Positions 2,706-31,564 of a DNA stretch of 35,266 nt are shown piece after piece. The position numbers and the translations under genes were made by a program. Below the pieces are notes generated by a model. That model was not told the DNA's origin, searched no databases, and worked only from the letters and a program-made list of their open reading frames with translations. Origin of the DNA: Myxococcota bacterium (GTDB taxonomy: Bacteria; Myxococcota_A; UBA9160; SZUA-336); assembly GCA_035498015.1 (NCBI GenBank), contig DATKAO010000004.1:1-35266 (forward strand), read 5' to 3'. Position 1 is the first letter of the stretch. Every line of letters starts with the position of its first letter.

Positions 2706-4495
2706 GTGGCGCGAGTCCTCATCATCGACGATTCCGCGGGCAGCGCGCGCGGGCTGCAGGAGTGTCTCGCGACCAGCGGTGTCGAGCTGTGCGTGATTCC
2801 CTGGTCGGAGAGCGCCTCGCTCGCCGCGGCGGAGTTCGCGCCCGCGCTGGTCGTGCTGTGTCTCGCTTCCAGCACGGGACACGGCGCGGCGCGCTGCGCG
2901 GCGCTGCGCGCGGAGCCGGCGCTCGATGGCGTGCCGCTGCTCGTGAGCGGCGGCGCGCTCGAGCAGGACGAGCTCGCGCGCTGTCTCGAGCTGGGCGCCG
3001 ACGACGCGCTCGTGCTGCCCGTGCACCCGCGCATCGCCGCTGGCCGCGTGCTCTCGCTGTCGCGCGCCAAGGCCGAGCGCGAGGCGCACGCGCACCTGGC
3101 GCGCGTGGCCGAGCAGGGCCAGCAGGCCTTCCGCACCACGATCGACGCGCTGCGCCGCTCGACCGAGGCCATGGAGCACAGCGAGCGGCGCAAGCGCTAT
3201 CTCGAGACCCACGACGCGCTCACGGGCCTGGCCAACCGCGACTACTTCCGCGAGTTCGCGCGCCGCACGCTCGGCTACGCGCGCCGCTACGGCAACACGC
3301 TGGCGGTGCTCACGATCAACCTCGACCACTTCGACCGCGTGAACGAGAACCTCGGCCACGTGACCGGCGACCAGCTCTTGCAGTCGGTCGCCAAGCGCCT
3401 GAAGAGCTGCGTGCGCGGCAGTGACATCGCCGCGCGCTTCGGCGGCGACGACTTCGCGGTCATGCTGACCAGCCTGCAGAGCCGCGACGACGCGGCCCTG
3501 GTCGCGAACAAGCTGCTCGAGTCGATCACGCGCCCGCACGACGTCGCAGGCGGCGAGATCTACGTGACGCCGAGCATCGGCGTGGCCATGTACCCGGACG
3601 ACGGCGAGACACCCGACGGCCTCCTGCGCAGCGCGGACGTGGCGCTGCACCGCGTGAAGGAAGTGGGCCGCGGGCGCTACCAGTTCTACTCGCACGAGAT
3701 GCGCGGCGGCTCGTTCGAGCGCATGCAGCTCGAGGTCATGCTGCGCGACGCGCTCGAGCGCAACGAGCTCTCGCTCTACTACCAGCCGCAGGTGGACGTG
3801 GCCAAGGGCGAGCTCGTGGGCGCGGAGGCGCTCCTGCGCTGGATCCACCCCGAGCGCGGCATGATCCCGCCCAGTGACTTCATTCCGCTGGCCGAGGCCA
3901 ACGGCATGATCGACGCGATCGGCGAGTGGGTGCTGCGCACGGCGTGCGCGCAGAAGAAGGCCTGGGAGCGCGCGGGCCTGGGCGAGTTCCCGATCTCGGT
4001 GAACGTGTCGCGGCGGCAGTTCCGCACCGCGGGCCTGGTCGAGCTGATCACGCAGATCCTCCACGAGACCGGGCTCGAGCCGAGTCACCTCGAGCTCGAA
4101 GTCACCGAGAACGCCCTGATCGAAGACGTGGACCAGACGCTGGGCGTGCTGCGCCGCGCGCGCGAGCAGGGCATGGGCATCGCGATCGACGACTTCGGCA
4201 CCGGCTACTCGAGCCTCGCCGTGCTGGGTCAGTTCCCGGCCAGCGCGCTCAAGATCGACCAGGCGTTCGTGCGCGACATCTCGGCCGACCCCGCGCACGC
4301 GGCGATCACGCGCGCCGTGCTCGCGGTGGCGGCCGAGCTGCGGCTGGGCGTGGTGGCCGAGGGCGTCGAGACGCGCGCCGAGCGCGACTTCCTGGTCGAG
4401 CTCGGCTGCGAGCGCATGCAGGGCTACCTGTTCGGCCGGCCGCTGCCCAAGGACGAGTTCGAGGTCGTCTGGCGCCAGGGCGGCGAGATCCCCGA

Positions 4496-4499: not shown

Positions 4500-5776
<1,277 letters not shown>

Positions 5777-25024: not shown

Positions 25025-28000
25025 ATGAGGATCGAAAGCGGTCACCGACTGTTTCGCTTCGCAATGACCCTGACGCTGCTGGCCTCGCCAGCGCGCGCTC
25101 TTGTGAGCGACTCGGCTGAGTTTGTGTTTCGCGCGGCCGGAGGGAGCGCCGTTGCCCCGAACGCGGGGCGTCGCTTCGACGCGAGTGTCTCCGCGAGCGG
25201 CGTAAGCCTCACGGCGTGCCGGGGCTCGAACGCCACGCTGGCGGTCGGTCTTCGCCTCGCGTCGGTCTCGCGCGGCTCCGAGCTCCGCTCGCCCGGCCGC
25301 GCCGAGGTCGACTTCTCCGGAAACAGCGCGCAGCTCCACTACGGCGGCCTGGGAATGACCGAGTGGTACGTGAACGACGCGCGCGGGCTGGAGCAGGGCT
25401 TCGATCTCGAGCAGCGCATCGCGCCAGGATCCAGGCCGCTCGAGCTCGCGCTCGCGGTCACCACGTCTCCCGGGGTCTCGCGCGGCCCGAGCGGCGATGG
25501 CTTCGCCTTCGCGCGGTCCGGCTGCCCGGACCGAATCGCGCTGCGCGACGTGCGCGCCTGGGACTCCCGCGGCACCACGCTCGGGGCCCGGCTGGAAGCT
25601 TCGGGCGAGCGCCTGAAGCTCGTGGTCGACGACTCACGCGCGGTCTACCCGATCACGATCGATCCGATCGCCTCGACGGCTACGGAGATCGTGCTCCCGG
25701 CTCACACCCTCTCGAACGAGGTCCAGATCGGCCCCGGCGGCGACTTGAATGGCGACGGCTTCAGCGATCTGGTCGTGATCGATTCACATGAGGACATCCC
25801 GTTCGTCGTCCCGCGCACCGAACACGGGACCGCGCGCGTGTTCTTCGGCTCGAGCTCTGGTCTCTCGACGACCCCGGGCTTCGTCGTTCAGGGCATCATC
25901 GACTTCGATCACTTCGGTAGCTCGTTTGCCGTCGGAGACCTCGATGGAGACGGCATCTCCGATCTCGCCGTCGGCATGCCCGGACTGGGCCCTGGAGACG
26001 TCGGGCAGGTGTTCGTGTGGTTCGGGTCCTCGAGCTTCAACACTCGAGGCGTGGTGTCCTTGCTGAGCGCCGACTGGTCGGCCACCGGGAGTCTCGGATT
26101 CGGCTTGTCGATGTCCGCAGGAGACTTGAACGGCGATGGCATCGACGATCTGGTCGTGAGCAGCCCCATTGCGGACCACGTGTTCGTCTGGACAGGCGAG
26201 ACGCGGAGTCAGTGGGCCACGCGGCCCAGAGACAACCAGGCCGTCCCTTCGTGGACCGCCAGTGGTGTAGCCGGACACGGCTTCGGCGAGTCTGTCTCCG
26301 CCAGCGGTGATGTGAACGGCGATGGCACCTACGACCTCGTGGTGGGCGCACCGAACGAATCGGCGTCCGGCGGCTCCGTGTTCCTGTACACGGGAGGTTC
26401 CAACTTCACGGCAACCCCGGGCACCGAGGCAAACGCCCAGGCCCGGGTGAACGGTACCCAGGGCCTGGGCACCACCGTTGCGATCAGCGGTGACGTGAAC
26501 GGCGACGGCTTCGCCGACATCCTGGCGACCGACGAAAGCAGCACTCCGTCCTTCAAGCTGTTCTTCGGGTCCGGCGGCCCGACACCCAATTTGACCGCTG
26601 TGTCTCCGTGGTCCGCAACGGTGAGCCATCCCGACTCGAACACCGCGTCGGCGGCGACGGCAGGGGACGTGAATGGAGACGGGTTGGCCGACTTGATCCT
26701 GGCTCAGCCCAACGTCTCGGACATCGACGGGAACGCCAATGTCTTCCTCGGGAGGATGGCGGGTCCCATACCCGCGCCGATCGTGGTTGCTCCCCAATTC
26801 CCGCAATTCAGCCTCCAGTCCGTCTCGCGAGTGGCGACCGCGGGAGACGTCGACGGGAACGGTTTCTCCGAGGTCGCCATGGTCGGCCAGGGCCCGACCA
26901 CCGGCGCCGACTTCGCAGCCAAGATTCAGGTCTTCGCAAGCACGGGCGACCCGACCGCGACCGAGTCACAGTTCTCGCTCTACGGTGATGCCACGACCGG
27001 GCAGGACGGGACAGGCTTCGGCATCGGTGCGACGGCCGCGGGGGACATCAACGGCGACGGCTTCAGCGACTTCGTCGTCGGGCAGCCGTTCTTCGCCGAT
27101 CCCGACTCACAGGAAGGTCGCTTCATGGTCGTCCTGGGCGGTCCCTGTACTCCGGATTGCACGGTGCCCCCCACGACCAGCCCGGCCGGCCACGAGGGCA
27201 ACCAGGCCGGAGCGCAGCTGGGCTGGAGCCTTGCGGGAGGCGGCGACTTCAACGGGGACGGATTTGCCGACGTGGCCGTCGGCGCGCCCCACTTCACGAC
27301 CAGCGAACGCTTCTTGACTCACCCGGACGCCGGGATCGTGAACGTCTATCTCGGAAGCGCGACCGGGCTCTCCGCGGATCCGAATCAGACTCTCAGTTCG
27401 CTGATCGACGGCAGTGAGCTCGGGAGCGCGGTCGCAAACGCTGGCGATGTGAACGGGGATGGCCTGGCCGACCTGCTCGTGAGCGCGCCCTTGGCGAACG
27501 GCGGCGCGGGGACGGTCTCGCTGTATCTCGGCACCCGCAATGGCGGGCCGCTCATGGCTCCGGCCTGGACGAAGAGCGGCACCCAGTCGAACGAGCACTT
27601 CGGCTCCCACCTGGCCGGCGCTTGCGACGTGGACGGCGACGGTCGCTCCGACGTGATCGTCGCAGCGACGACCTTCACGAATGGTGCGCCCGCGGCCTTC
27701 GTGTTTCTCGGCCAGAAGAACGGCCTCAGCTCGACACCGTTCGCCGTGCTCCTGAGCGACCAGGGCGCCGATGACAACGGCATTCAGGTCGCCTGTGCCG
27801 GTGACGTGAATGGGGACACGCTGGCAGACGTGGCCGTCGGCGAAGCGGAGTACAGCGTGACCATCGGAGCGCAACAAGGGCGCGTTCGAGTGTTCAACGG
27901 CGGCCCGACGCTGCCCGGCGCGGCGCCCGCGATCACGCTCGCCGGGACCCAAGCGGGCGGCCGCTTCGGCGCCGGCATTGGCGGCGGCGGCGACGTCGAT

Positions 28001-29281
28001 GCGGACGGATTCGGCGATCTAGTCGTCGGCCAGCAGTGGTTCAGCGACGGTGCGGCCCCGTTCGAAGGGCGAGCCTTCGCATTTCTCGGCAGCCCGACGG
28101 GCCTTGATGTCACCCGCAGCGTGACACTGCCGTTGCCGGCTCCGGCCGGGGCGGTCACCGCGGATTTCGGCCGCGACGTCGCCGACGACTTCGACTTCAA
28201 CGGCGATGGCTTCGCAGACGTTCTGATCGGTGCGTTCACCGTCCCCCGAGGCAATCTTTCCACCTCAGGCGCGGTGTTCGTCAACTTCGGCGGGGGAAGC
28301 CAGGGCACGCCGCGCATTCCGCGCATGACTCACGACAATCCGGTGGGTCCGCCGCTCGCTCTGCTGGGCGCGACCAACCCCGCCGACGCCCGGCTCTTCA
28401 ACGTTCGCAGCCTGCCGCGGAGCGCTGCGGGGCGGACGCGCGTGAGGCAGGAGGTCCAGACCAAGATCGGAGGACAGCCCTTCGACGGGGGCTTGCCGAC
28501 GTTCCTCTCGGCGCTGCAAGACTCCGGGGCCACCGACTTCATCGACGTGGAGTCTCACTGCAACACCGGAATCCTTCTCGGCGGCCCATCGTGTCGCTGG
28601 CGCACGCGGCTCCGCACCACCAATCCGTTCTTCCCGCGCACGCCGTGGCTCTCCCCGCCGGGCAACAGCCCGACCGAGGCGGACATCCGCGACGACAGTG
28701 ACTCCGACGGCGACGGCGTCGCCGACTTCGGCGACGTCTGCCCGAGCGTGCCGGATCCCAACCAGACGGATTCGGACGGCGACCTGGTCGGCGACGCGTG
28801 CGACAACTGCCCGGTCACTGCGAACTTCGACCAGGCCGACACGGATGGCGACACGGTGGGAGACGCCTGTGACAACTGCCAGCTGGTGAGCAATCGCCGA
28901 GTCAGCCCGACCTTCCTGACCGCAAACCCCTGGGCCACGCTCACGGGCGGGCAGCGCGACGACGACCACGACGGCTTCGGCAACGTGTGCGACGGAGACT
29001 TCCCACTCACCACGCAAGGCATCAACGTGAACGCGGCCGACACCAATCAGTTCAAGACCGCGGTGAACCAGGACAGGACCGCGAAGAAGTGCGGGACCAA
29101 CGGGAAGATCGCTTGCGCCATCTTCGATCTGGACACCAAGCAGAACGACCCGGGCGCCGCGAACAACATCAACGCCGCAGACACTGCCCGCTTCAAGCTC
29201 CTGGTCGGATTCCCTGCAGGTCCGAAGTGCCCGACGTGTCCGCTGCTGTGCGAGGCGGGTCCGCAGGGCAGCTGCAACTAG
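25025..29281 (+). CDS. Giant secreted FG-GAP / thrombospondin-3 / dockerin-like protein
   Basis: A 1418-residue exported protein. After a signal peptide (about 1-25) comes an N-terminal domain ending in VYPITIDPIA (about 30-215), common in large myxobacterial-type surface proteins. Then follow 14 FG-GAP/integrin-alpha type repeats (about 240-1065), each with a calcium loop D-x-N/D-G-D such as GDLNGDGFSDLVV. Fourteen blades would make two seven-bladed propellers. Thrombospondin type-3 repeats follow (about 1220-1310, DSDGDGVADFGDVCP, DTDGDTVGDACDNC), then a C-terminal region with two dockerin-like segments (NVNAADTNQFK and NINAADTARFK) and a Cys-rich end (CPTCPLLC). Calcium-dependent surface adhesion or binding is likely (inference). 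ATG at 25025 follows GGAGGAG. Base composition is somewhat less GC-rich than the efflux region. Confidence 0.92.
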   Translation: MRIESGHRLFRFAMTLTLLASPARALVSDSAEFVFRAAGGSAVAPNAGRRFDASVSASGVSLTACRGSNATLAVGLRLASVSRGSELRSPGRAEVDFSGNSAQLHYGGLGMTEWYVNDARGLEQGFDLEQRIAPGSRPLELALAVTTSPGVSRGPSGDGFAFARSGCPDRIALRDVRAWDSRGTTLGARLEASGERLKLVVDDSRAVYPITIDPIASTATEIVLPAHTLSNEVQIGPGGDLNGDGFSDLVVIDSHEDIPFVVPRTEHGTARVFFGSSSGLSTTPGFVVQGIIDFDHFGSSFAVGDLDGDGISDLAVGMPGLGPGDVGQVFVWFGSSSFNTRGVVSLLSADWSATGSLGFGLSMSAGDLNGDGIDDLVVSSPIADHVFVWTGETRSQWATRPRDNQAVPSWTASGVAGHGFGESVSASGDVNGDGTYDLVVGAPNESASGGSVFLYTGGSNFTATPGTEANAQARVNGTQGLGTTVAISGDVNGDGFADILATDESSTPSFKLFFGSGGPTPNLTAVSPWSATVSHPDSNTASAATAGDVNGDGLADLILAQPNVSDIDGNANVFLGRMAGPIPAPIVVAPQFPQFSLQSVSRVATAGDVDGNGFSEVAMVGQGPTTGADFAAKIQVFASTGDPTATESQFSLYGDATTGQDGTGFGIGATAAGDINGDGFSDFVVGQPFFADPDSQEGRFMVVLGGPCTPDCTVPPTTSPAGHEGNQAGAQLGWSLAGGGDFNGDGFADVAVGAPHFTTSERFLTHPDAGIVNVYLGSATGLSADPNQTLSSLIDGSELGSAVANAGDVNGDGLADLLVSAPLANGGAGTVSLYLGTRNGGPLMAPAWTKSGTQSNEHFGSHLAGACDVDGDGRSDVIVAATTFTNGAPAAFVFLGQKNGLSSTPFAVLLSDQGADDNGIQVACAGDVNGDTLADVAVGEAEYSVTIGAQQGRVRVFNGGPTLPGAAPAITLAGTQAGGRFGAGIGGGGDVDADGFGDLVVGQQWFSDGAAPFEGRAFAFLGSPTGLDVTRSVTLPLPAPAGAVTADFGRDVADDFDFNGDGFADVLIGAFTVPRGNLSTSGAVFVNFGGGSQGTPRIPRMTHDNPVGPPLALLGATNPADARLFNVRSLPRSAAGRTRVRQEVQTKIGGQPFDGGLPTFLSALQDSGATDFIDVESHCNTGILLGGPSCRWRTRLRTTNPFFPRTPWLSPPGNSPTEADIRDDSDSDGDGVADFGDVCPSVPDPNQTDSDGDLVGDACDNCPVTANFDQADTDGDTVGDACDNCQLVSNRRVSPTFLTANPWATLTGGQRDDDHDGFGNVCDGDFPLTTQGINVNAADTNQFKTAVNQDRTAKKCGTNGKIACAIFDLDTKQNDPGAANNINAADTARFKLLVGFPAGPKCPTCPLLCEAGPQGSCN

Positions 29282-29293
29282 TCGCCGGCCGTT

Positions 29294-29354
29294 CGCATCG
29301 CGATCTCCTTCGGAGTATGGTCGCAAGACCGACGCCGAAGGAGATCGCCATGCG
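29294..29354 (+). promoter_or_regulatory. Long hairpin covering the ribosome site and start of the LLM gene
   Basis: CGCATCGCGATCTCCTTCGG (29294-29313) and CCGAAGGAGATCGCCATGCG (29335-29354) are reverse complements with one mismatch in 20. The intervening 21 bases contain a small stem GGTC-GCAA-GACC with a GNRA tetraloop. The right arm carries the AAGGAG ribosome site and the ATG (29350-29352), so the folded mRNA would hide translation start. It could also be a transcript end for the upstream gene, but there is no U-tract. Confidence 0.6.
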
Positions 29355-30411
29355 CATCGGACTCCAGCTCGTGCTGCAGAACTACCTCGAGTCGACCACC
29401 GACGAGCACGTGCTCGATCTCGAGTACCGCCTGTCCGAGCTGGCCGAGCCGCTCGGCTTCGACTCGATCTGGTGCGTCGAGCACCACTTCGACTGGTACT
29501 CGATGGGCCCCGACACGCCGCAGATCCTCGCGTACCTGGCGGGACGGACGAGCCGCATCGGCCTGGCCACGGGCGCGGTGATCCTGCCCTGGAACGACCC
29601 GCTGCGCGTGGTCGAGAAGATGACGCTGCTCGACTACCAGTCGAAGGGCCGCGCCATCTTCGGCATGGGCCACGGCCTGGCGCGCATGGAGTACGACGGC
29701 TTCCAGATCGACATGAACGAGGCGCGCGATCGCTTCGCCGAAGCCGCGCGCATGATCCTGGCGGGCCTCGAGAGCGGCATCGTGCGCGGCGACGGCCCGT
29801 ACTACCCGCAGAAGCCCGTGCAGGTGCGCCCGAAGCCGCGCGGCTCGTGGAAGGACCGCACGTACATGGTGGCCATGTCGCCGCACTCCACGCCGCTGTG
29901 CGCCGAGCTCGGCGCGAAGCCGATGGTGTTCGTGCAGAAGCCGTGGGACGAGACCAAGGAGCACATCGCGCTGTTCAACAGCTCGTGGGAGAAGTTCCAC
30001 AAGTCAGCGCCGCCCGCGCCGACCTTCGCGGAGTTCCTGATCTGCTCCGAGTCACCCGGCGAGGCGCGCGACCTGGCCCAGGAGCACATTGCGAACTACT
30101 ACCACTCGGTGGTGAGTCACTACGAGTTCACCAAGGTCGAGAACTTCCAGAAGAAGGGTTACTCGTCCTACGCCGAGAACGCGGCCGCGCTCGGCGCCTT
30201 CGGCGTGGACAACGCGGCTCGAGGCTTCGTGGAGATCAACGCCTACGGCACCCCGGCGCAGATCCTCGAGAAGCTGCGCGCCCGCCGCGAGCTGATCGGC
30301 GAGTTCAACCTGTCGATCGTGCCGACCTTCGGCGGCCTGCCCGATGCGGCGGCGGAGAAGAGCCTGCGGCTCTTGGGCGAGCAGGTTCTGCCGGTGATCC
30401 GGAGCTGGTAG
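29350..30411 (+). CDS. LLM-class (luciferase-like) flavin-dependent oxidoreductase
   Basis: A 353-residue TIM-barrel flavoprotein. Family marks are MRIGLQLVLQNYLE at the N-terminus, EPLGFDSIWCVEHHFDWY, TSRIGLATGAVILPWNDPLR and the mid-protein GRAIFGMGHGLARMEYDGFQ. These enzymes use reduced flavin (FMN or F420) for oxidations of many substrates; the substrate here is not predictable. ATG at 29350 is preferred because AAGGAGATCGCC precedes it; an in-frame upstream extension would run into the giant gene. The start is held in a 20-bp inverted repeat (29294-29354). An AraC regulator follows, 58 bases downstream, and a related C-terminal remnant lies at 24862-24915. Confidence 0.92.
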   Translation: MRIGLQLVLQNYLESTTDEHVLDLEYRLSELAEPLGFDSIWCVEHHFDWYSMGPDTPQILAYLAGRTSRIGLATGAVILPWNDPLRVVEKMTLLDYQSKGRAIFGMGHGLARMEYDGFQIDMNEARDRFAEAARMILAGLESGIVRGDGPYYPQKPVQVRPKPRGSWKDRTYMVAMSPHSTPLCAELGAKPMVFVQKPWDETKEHIALFNSSWEKFHKSAPPAPTFAEFLICSESPGEARDLAQEHIANYYHSVVSHYEFTKVENFQKKGYSSYAENAAALGAFGVDNAARGFVEINAYGTPAQILEKLRARRELIGEFNLSIVPTFGGLPDAAAEKSLRLLGEQVLPVIRSW

Positions 30412-30469: not shown

Positions 30470-31564
30470 ATGCGACGCGGGACTTCAACGCTGCGAGCTG
30501 CTGCACCGTCGCTGGCGAGCGCGCTGCCCGAGCCTCGCTGCGTGGCGAAGCTCGGCCGGTCCGGACCCACGGCGCCCAGTCAGACTTTCTCCGTGCGCCT
30601 TTGCGTGCCCTTCTTGCGCGTCCTGGAGCGGCGGGGCGCGCTCTCGGCCGAGGAGATTGCGCGCCTCACGCCGCGCGATCTCGAGGCGCGCATCCCCGTC
30701 TCGACCGCGCTCGCCATGCTCGACGGCGCGGTGGCGCTGACCCGCGACCCCGACCTTGGGCTCCACGCGGCGCTCGAGGCGGAGGCGGGGGAGTTCGACC
30801 TGCTCGAGTATCTGGCTTGCTCGGCGACGAGCATCGCCGACTCCGTGCCGCTCCTGGCCCGCTACTCGCGGCTCTTGAACGACGGGCTCGAGATCGTGCT
30901 CGAACGCATCGAGCGCCGCGCCATCCTGCGCTTCTCGAGCCGGGTGCAGCTGAACCGCGTCGCGGCCGACTTCCAGCTCGCTTCTTTCTTCCGCGGCTTC
31001 AGCCGCGAAGCCTCCGGCAGTCCCGTCGAGGTCTGGCTGATGCACGACGAGCCCGAGGACCGCACGATGTGCGAACGGGTCTTCGCCGGAGCGCTGCTGC
31101 GCTTCTCGGCGCCCTACGACGCGATCGTCTTCGACGCGGCGCGCGTCGATCGCTACGACCCCAAGCCCGACCGCAAGCTGCACCACCTGCTGCACCGGTT
31201 GGCCGAGCAGCGCGTGTCCGAGCTGCACGTCTGCGAGCCACTCGCCCAGCTCGTGCGCGAACGACTCGCTTCGGAGCTCGCCGGTGGCGATCCGAGCGCG
31301 GAGCACATCGCCGCCTTGCTCCACATGTCGCGGCGCACGCTGGTCCGCCAGCTCGAGCGAGAGGGGACTGGCTTCAAGGCGATCCTCGACGCTCTGCGCG
31401 CGAGCCTCGCCCGCCGCTACCTCGCCGTGGACCGGATCGGAGTGAGCGAGGTCGCGTCACGCCTGGGCTTCTCCGACGCGGCCGCCTTCACCCGCGCGTT
31501 CCGCCGATGGTCGGGCCAGTCCCCCAGCGAATACCGCCGCTCCCAGCTCGTCGTCGCGAACTGA
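30470..31564 (+). CDS. AraC-family regulator with Arabinose_bd-type N-terminal domain
   Basis: A 364-residue regulator. The N-terminal part (about 55-235, SVRLCVPFLRVLERRGALS ... LGLHAALEAEAGEFDLLEYL ... RFSSRVQLNRVAADFQLASFF) fits the PF12625 ligand-binding domain of OruR/ArgR-like regulators. The C-terminal pair of helix-turn-helix motifs (about 265-360) is HIAALLHMSRRTLVRQLEREG and GVSEVASRLGFSDAAAFTRAFRRW with GQSPSEYR, typical of AraC. The ATG at 30470 is preceded by a modest site (GGAG), and a GTG at 30542 could also be the start, which would remove an atypical Ala/Pro/Arg-rich leader. It lies between LLM oxidoreductase and a secreted hydrolase, either of which may be its target. Confidence 0.92.
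   Translation: MRRGTSTLRAAAPSLASALPEPRCVAKLGRSGPTAPSQTFSVRLCVPFLRVLERRGALSAEEIARLTPRDLEARIPVSTALAMLDGAVALTRDPDLGLHAALEAEAGEFDLLEYLACSATSIADSVPLLARYSRLLNDGLEIVLERIERRAILRFSSRVQLNRVAADFQLASFFRGFSREASGSPVEVWLMHDEPEDRTMCERVFAGALLRFSAPYDAIVFDAARVDRYDPKPDRKLHHLLHRLAEQRVSELHVCEPLAQLVRERLASELAGGDPSAEHIAALLHMSRRTLVRQLEREGTGFKAILDALRASLARRYLAVDRIGVSEVASRLGFSDAAAFTRAFRRWSGQSPSEYRRSQLVVAN

Follow-up and report, generated by a model that had tools for sequence, protein, structure and literature searches.

An inverted repeat over the ribosome-binding site of a luciferase-like monooxygenase gene in a Myxococcota bacterium as a possible read-through silencer

Fold-back inhibition of the IS10 and IS50 transposases relies on a hairpin of incoming transcripts that hides the ribosome-binding site (RBS). 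In Bacillus subtilis sigG, a hairpin of 20 or more pairs has been proposed as a block on RNA reading through from spoIIG; RNA initiated at the sigG promoter is unable to form it (PMC5942855). In gene e (lysozyme) of phage T4, long early RNAs form a stem in the initiation region with approximately 100-fold inhibition, and late promoters situated just upstream of the RBS give rise to short transcripts that are without the 5' strand of this stem and are translated (PMC3014915). Our analysis of a Myxococcota locus identified a long inverted repeat at the start of a luciferase-like (LLM) flavin-dependent monooxygenase gene, for which a read-through silencer is the most likely reading, with about an even chance of being correct.

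The window, meaning the whole stretch of 35,266 nucleotides that was analysed, contains an FG-GAP-repeat protein gene and the LLM gene in tandem on the same strand, followed by the gene of an AraC-type protein (Table 1). The FG-GAP gene ends 68 nt before the LLM ATG and its stop lies about 12-13 nt from the left arm of the repeat; the terminator scan returned zero terminator-like sites on the + strand of the intergenic region. The LLM label of the initial annotation agreed with the PF00296 profile match, and in the homologue comparison the ATG at 29350 matched the N-termini of related proteins. A conserved operon of LLM with the FG-GAP or AraC genes was rejected as the neighbours are not conserved, the neighbourhood comparison having found no FG-GAP gene next to LLM homologues and no relative with an adjoining AraC-type gene except a distant one (L041). 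The FG-GAP protein itself ends in a module of ~170 residues (window 28700-29281) that is TSP3-like and continues with two INAADT..FK repeats resembling dockerin-type loops. This module is common to many otherwise unlike large proteins of the genus and is possibly a surface-anchoring or sorting module in the FG-GAP protein and its paralogues.

Table 1. Features at the LLM gene start, neighbouring genes and paralogues of the FG-GAP C-terminal module.
Feature	Position	Strand	Basis
FG-GAP-repeat protein gene	25025-29281 (stop 29279-29281)	+	PF01839, E 1.4e-75; ORF
Candidate -35, TTCGCA (4/6)	29292-29297	+	inferred promoter
Left arm, complementary to SD and start	29294-29316	+	inverted-repeat search
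Candidate -10, TATGGT, ending 28 nt before ATG, 18-nt spacer from TTCGCA	29316-29321	+	consensus match
Inner stem-loop GGTC-GCAA-GACC, only in transcripts starting upstream	29319-29330	+	sequence, fold
Predicted transcription start (A), 7 nt past -10, in loop between arms	29328	+	inferred from -10 position
Right arm with SD AAGGAG (29338-29343) and ATG (29350-29352)	29332-29354	+	inverted-repeat search
LLM flavin-dependent monooxygenase gene, 353 aa	29350-30411	+	PF00296, E 8.6e-51
AraC-type protein gene, downstream neighbour of LLM gene	30470-31564		profile match
Paralogues of the module at window 28700-29281	G000 C141, C191, C32, C82, C68, C97; G001 C24, C79, C109, C95, C6		

The initial annotation had described a twenty-bp inverted repeat with a single mismatch, carrying the Shine-Dalgarno sequence (SD) and ATG of the LLM gene in its right arm and a GGTC-GCAA-GACC stem in its 21-nt loop, and the sequence bore out all of these features. 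Watson-Crick pairs are formed at 19 of the 20 positions between 29294-29313 and 29335-29354, the sole mismatch being C-C (29299/29349), and the loop spans 29314-29334. An automatic search extended the arms to 23 nt, with 21 positions paired (91%) and 15 nt between the arms. The minimum free energy of the 101-nt region was -52.6 kcal/mol (z -5.4), a stability that none of 200 shuffles attained, and in long RNA the hairpin consisted of 14+5 bp.

At the base composition of the window (70% GC), the expected number of repeats with at least 19 of 20 pairs and a loop of 3-40 nt is 0.0012 per window and 0.15 per 4.5-Mb genome, and a 4-Mb second-order Markov simulation yielded zero. The repeat is beyond chance at the scale of the window; over a whole genome, a single repeat of this kind would not be extraordinarily improbable. 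Comparisons within the same genome, which covered 1.1 Mb in stretches with simple gene calls made for this analysis, showed two repeats with arms of at least 20 nt, at most two mismatches and a loop of at most 40 nt, namely that of the window and one inside a MITE-like element. The score for SD-covering repeats was 17 at the LLM start in comparison to a best of 12 among 251 other gene starts, and the exact placement of the repeat on SD and ATG appears to add weight against coincidence. A dispersed repeat was rejected, as a second copy of the element was absent from its own genome and from 90 further genomes of the class, and the few short matches found elsewhere (27-32 nt) span RBS and start only. 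The MITE-like element (L112; G000:C41, 1-252) is ~250 bp long, is bounded by 18-bp terminal inverted repeats (CTGCGAAACCCACTCGTC) and contains a further inverted repeat of 25 bp internally, and its terminal sequence recurs in the genome at G000:C55:5849, C93:5275 and C176:8118.

On the minus strand, the left arm also reads as a ribosome site (GAAGGAG-ATCGCG-ATG) with a frame of six codons up to a stop behind it, so an inverted duplication of the RBS could have given rise to the repeat. The repeat can be interpreted as lacking regulatory function, either a quasi-palindrome left by such a duplication or by template switching, or a remnant RBS of a divergent gene; we regard this as unlikely, though it is, together with a 3'-end structure, one of the two main rivals of the silencer. 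The complete SD and ATG with their short frame would fit this account, as would the lack of conservation of the repeat in homologues and the case of L021, whose similar left arm serves as SD for a divergent SDR-like gene; however, no divergent gene is present at the LLM start, the repeat runs on through spacer and start codon, and mismatches should have become more numerous in an old repeat that was not under selection. The same structure was not found among 26 LLM homologues, where the best SD-covering repeats scored 4-7, with 10 in L021. As the left arm in L021 is the SD of the divergent gene, the likeness there amounts to two ribosome sites in back-to-back orientation. The nearest LLM homologues are only ~50% identical in protein, and for this reason no meaningful leader alignment for covariation was obtained.

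The repeat, its fold, the occlusion of the SD in long RNA and its release in short RNA were established in silico, with the SD unpaired at a probability of 0.00 in RNAs starting at or before 29294 and 0.62 in RNA from 29328. In RNAs starting at 29330-29332 the SD was less open (0.28-0.35), and 29328-29400 folded no more stably than its shuffles (z -0.3). An earlier proposal that LLM translation depends on unfolding of the hairpin held in silico for transcripts with both arms, in which SD and start are hidden, but not for RNA from the predicted start at 29328, whose ribosome site is mostly open.

Judging from the sequence, LLM probably has its own sigma-70 promoter between the hairpin arms. The candidate TTCGCA-18-TATGGT lies with its -10 at -34 relative to the ATG and matches the sigma-70-type consensus at 8 of 12 positions, below the 9/12 cut-off of the promoter scan, where it was unlisted. 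Sites of at least 8/12 located 20-50 nt before the reference point were seen in 0.3% of 5000 100-mers drawn at random from the genome in comparison to 4.4% of the 251 gene starts possessing an SD and upstream space. The motif TAnnnT, with its first base 22-45 nt ahead of the start codon, was present in 12 of 26 LLM homologues, whereas the control zone gave 2, the reversed motif 5 and shuffles 3.4 +/- 1.6; in homologue L022, TATGGT precedes the ATG by 27 nt, and in a paralogue from the same genome (contig C114) TATGCT stands 24 nt upstream of the ATG. Transcription starting between the arms, which the initial annotation had listed as counting against its own proposal, is the likelier situation given where the candidate promoter lies, with the start itself a prediction. 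Elsewhere in the genome, at ~10074 of L132 (G000:C61), a 14-bp hairpin directly upstream of the following gene's SD contains TATAGT in its arms and represents a further case in which hairpin, -10-like sequence and gene start coincide.

The read-through silencer would work as follows. LLM would be transcribed from its own sigma-70-type promoter, with -35 and -10 lying within left arm and loop, and mRNA from ~29328 would carry the right arm alone and be translated normally. RNA running in from the FG-GAP gene, a read-through that we assume takes place, would carry both arms, fold into the 14+5-bp hairpin and give no LLM translation. Because RNA from 29328 lacks the left arm, the hairpin would form only in read-through RNA. 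Silencing may be the purpose of the repeat; selection for it is not demonstrable because the repeat is unconserved in homologues and the FG-GAP neighbour was not found beside them.

Overlap of the repeat with the candidate promoter and the adjoining AraC-family gene could also indicate a DNA operator for a dimeric regulator, such as the downstream AraC-type protein, and this we consider very improbable. Arms of 23 nt matching SD and ATG are no ordinary operator shape, AraC-type binding sites are usually direct repeats, and the AraC-type gene is not next to LLM in relatives other than the distant L041.

A ligand-, protein- or temperature-sensitive switch, as initially suggested, was not borne out. 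Such a leader would require that LLM mRNA normally has both arms and that a ligand, protein, sRNA or temperature opens them. SD and AUG are indeed fully occluded in the long RNA in silico and the GNRA-capped inner stem is a conceivable contact site, but the Rfam search returned no family (its only match, to a snoRNA, lay elsewhere and far below the gathering score), 26 homologues are without an equivalent, and the promoter is likely between the arms. Overall, a true leader switch is improbable. An RNA thermometer was rejected, as the stem remained closed to ~90 C in silico, with the SD unpaired at 0.001 at 50 C and 0.03 at 90 C. RNA thermometers and translational riboswitches resemble the LLM hairpin in having the RBS inside a stem, whereas the stem here is far too stable and has neither a family match nor conservation.

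Alternatively, the hairpin may mainly be a 3'-end structure of the FG-GAP mRNA (a factor-independent or Rho-trimmed end, or a stabiliser), with its overlap of the LLM start reflecting compaction. In the same genome, hairpins scoring at least 12 followed 12 of 719 stops at a distance of no more than 80 nt, in comparison to 0 of 719 gene interiors, indicating that this genome does use post-stop hairpins, and that of the window, starting about 12-13 nt past the stop, is the strongest of the set. Some FG-GAP paralogues (L147, L149) also have 12-13-bp hairpins right after the stop, but most have none, and a 3' hairpin common to the FG-GAP family was rejected since few of 14 paralogues have a hairpin and the sequences are unrelated. 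The other post-stop hairpins are mostly tetraloops with T-containing tails and the window's hairpin has neither: its loop is 21 nt in comparison to the usual of about 4, and the next bases are CATCGGACTCC. An intrinsic terminator was rejected on these grounds (no T-run, loop of 21) together with its absence from the terminator scan. Pairing of 19/20 exactly over SD and ATG is furthermore unnecessary for a 3' end, and we hold it doubtful that this is mainly what the hairpin does. A double role in 3'-end formation and LLM silencing is possible for one hairpin. In its fullest form, a two-state RNA joint in which the hairpin ends or protects FG-GAP mRNA and keeps LLM off, with LLM switched purely by promoter choice, this appears rather unlikely.

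The post-stop survey also revealed three near-identical 14-bp hairpins behind three different genes in L063 (G000:C132), near 3348 and 4273 (+) and 15660 (-), with the sequence cgaacgccgcgttc-NNNN-gaacgcggcgttcg. In L159 (G001:C95, ~5210-5265), an 18-bp perfect inverted repeat (CTCCTGGGTCAGATTTCC) with a REP-type look was located past a gene end.

In comparison with the known systems, the LLM start showed in silico both a long stem occluding SD and AUG and an open SD in the short transcript, and on this analysis its hairpin likely belongs with the sigG and T4 gene e type of read-through silencer. This membership is likely yet unproven, as the hairpin would work in the same way only if the putative promoter is real. 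The likeness to sigG comprises an SD in the right arm, a promoter (a candidate at LLM) in left arm and loop, and an upstream tandem gene, whereas the genes are unrelated, the organism is another and developmental control is documented for sigG. T4 gene e has the same geometry with a promoter close to the RBS (again a candidate at LLM), but is a phage gene with timed late promoters for which the effect was measured, while the LLM hairpin is known in silico. IS10 and IS50 differ in their mobile-element context, of which there is none at LLM. To our knowledge, no silencer with a promoter between its arms has been described in this bacterial class. It is important to note that a perfect-looking RBS hairpin beside a tandem gene is not necessarily a sensor, as an inter-arm promoter makes it a read-through insulator, and predicted RBS-sequestering hairpins should be tested for such a promoter before they are named switches. 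In summary, the arrangement is already known from sigG and T4 gene e, and the LLM start is likely another case of it.
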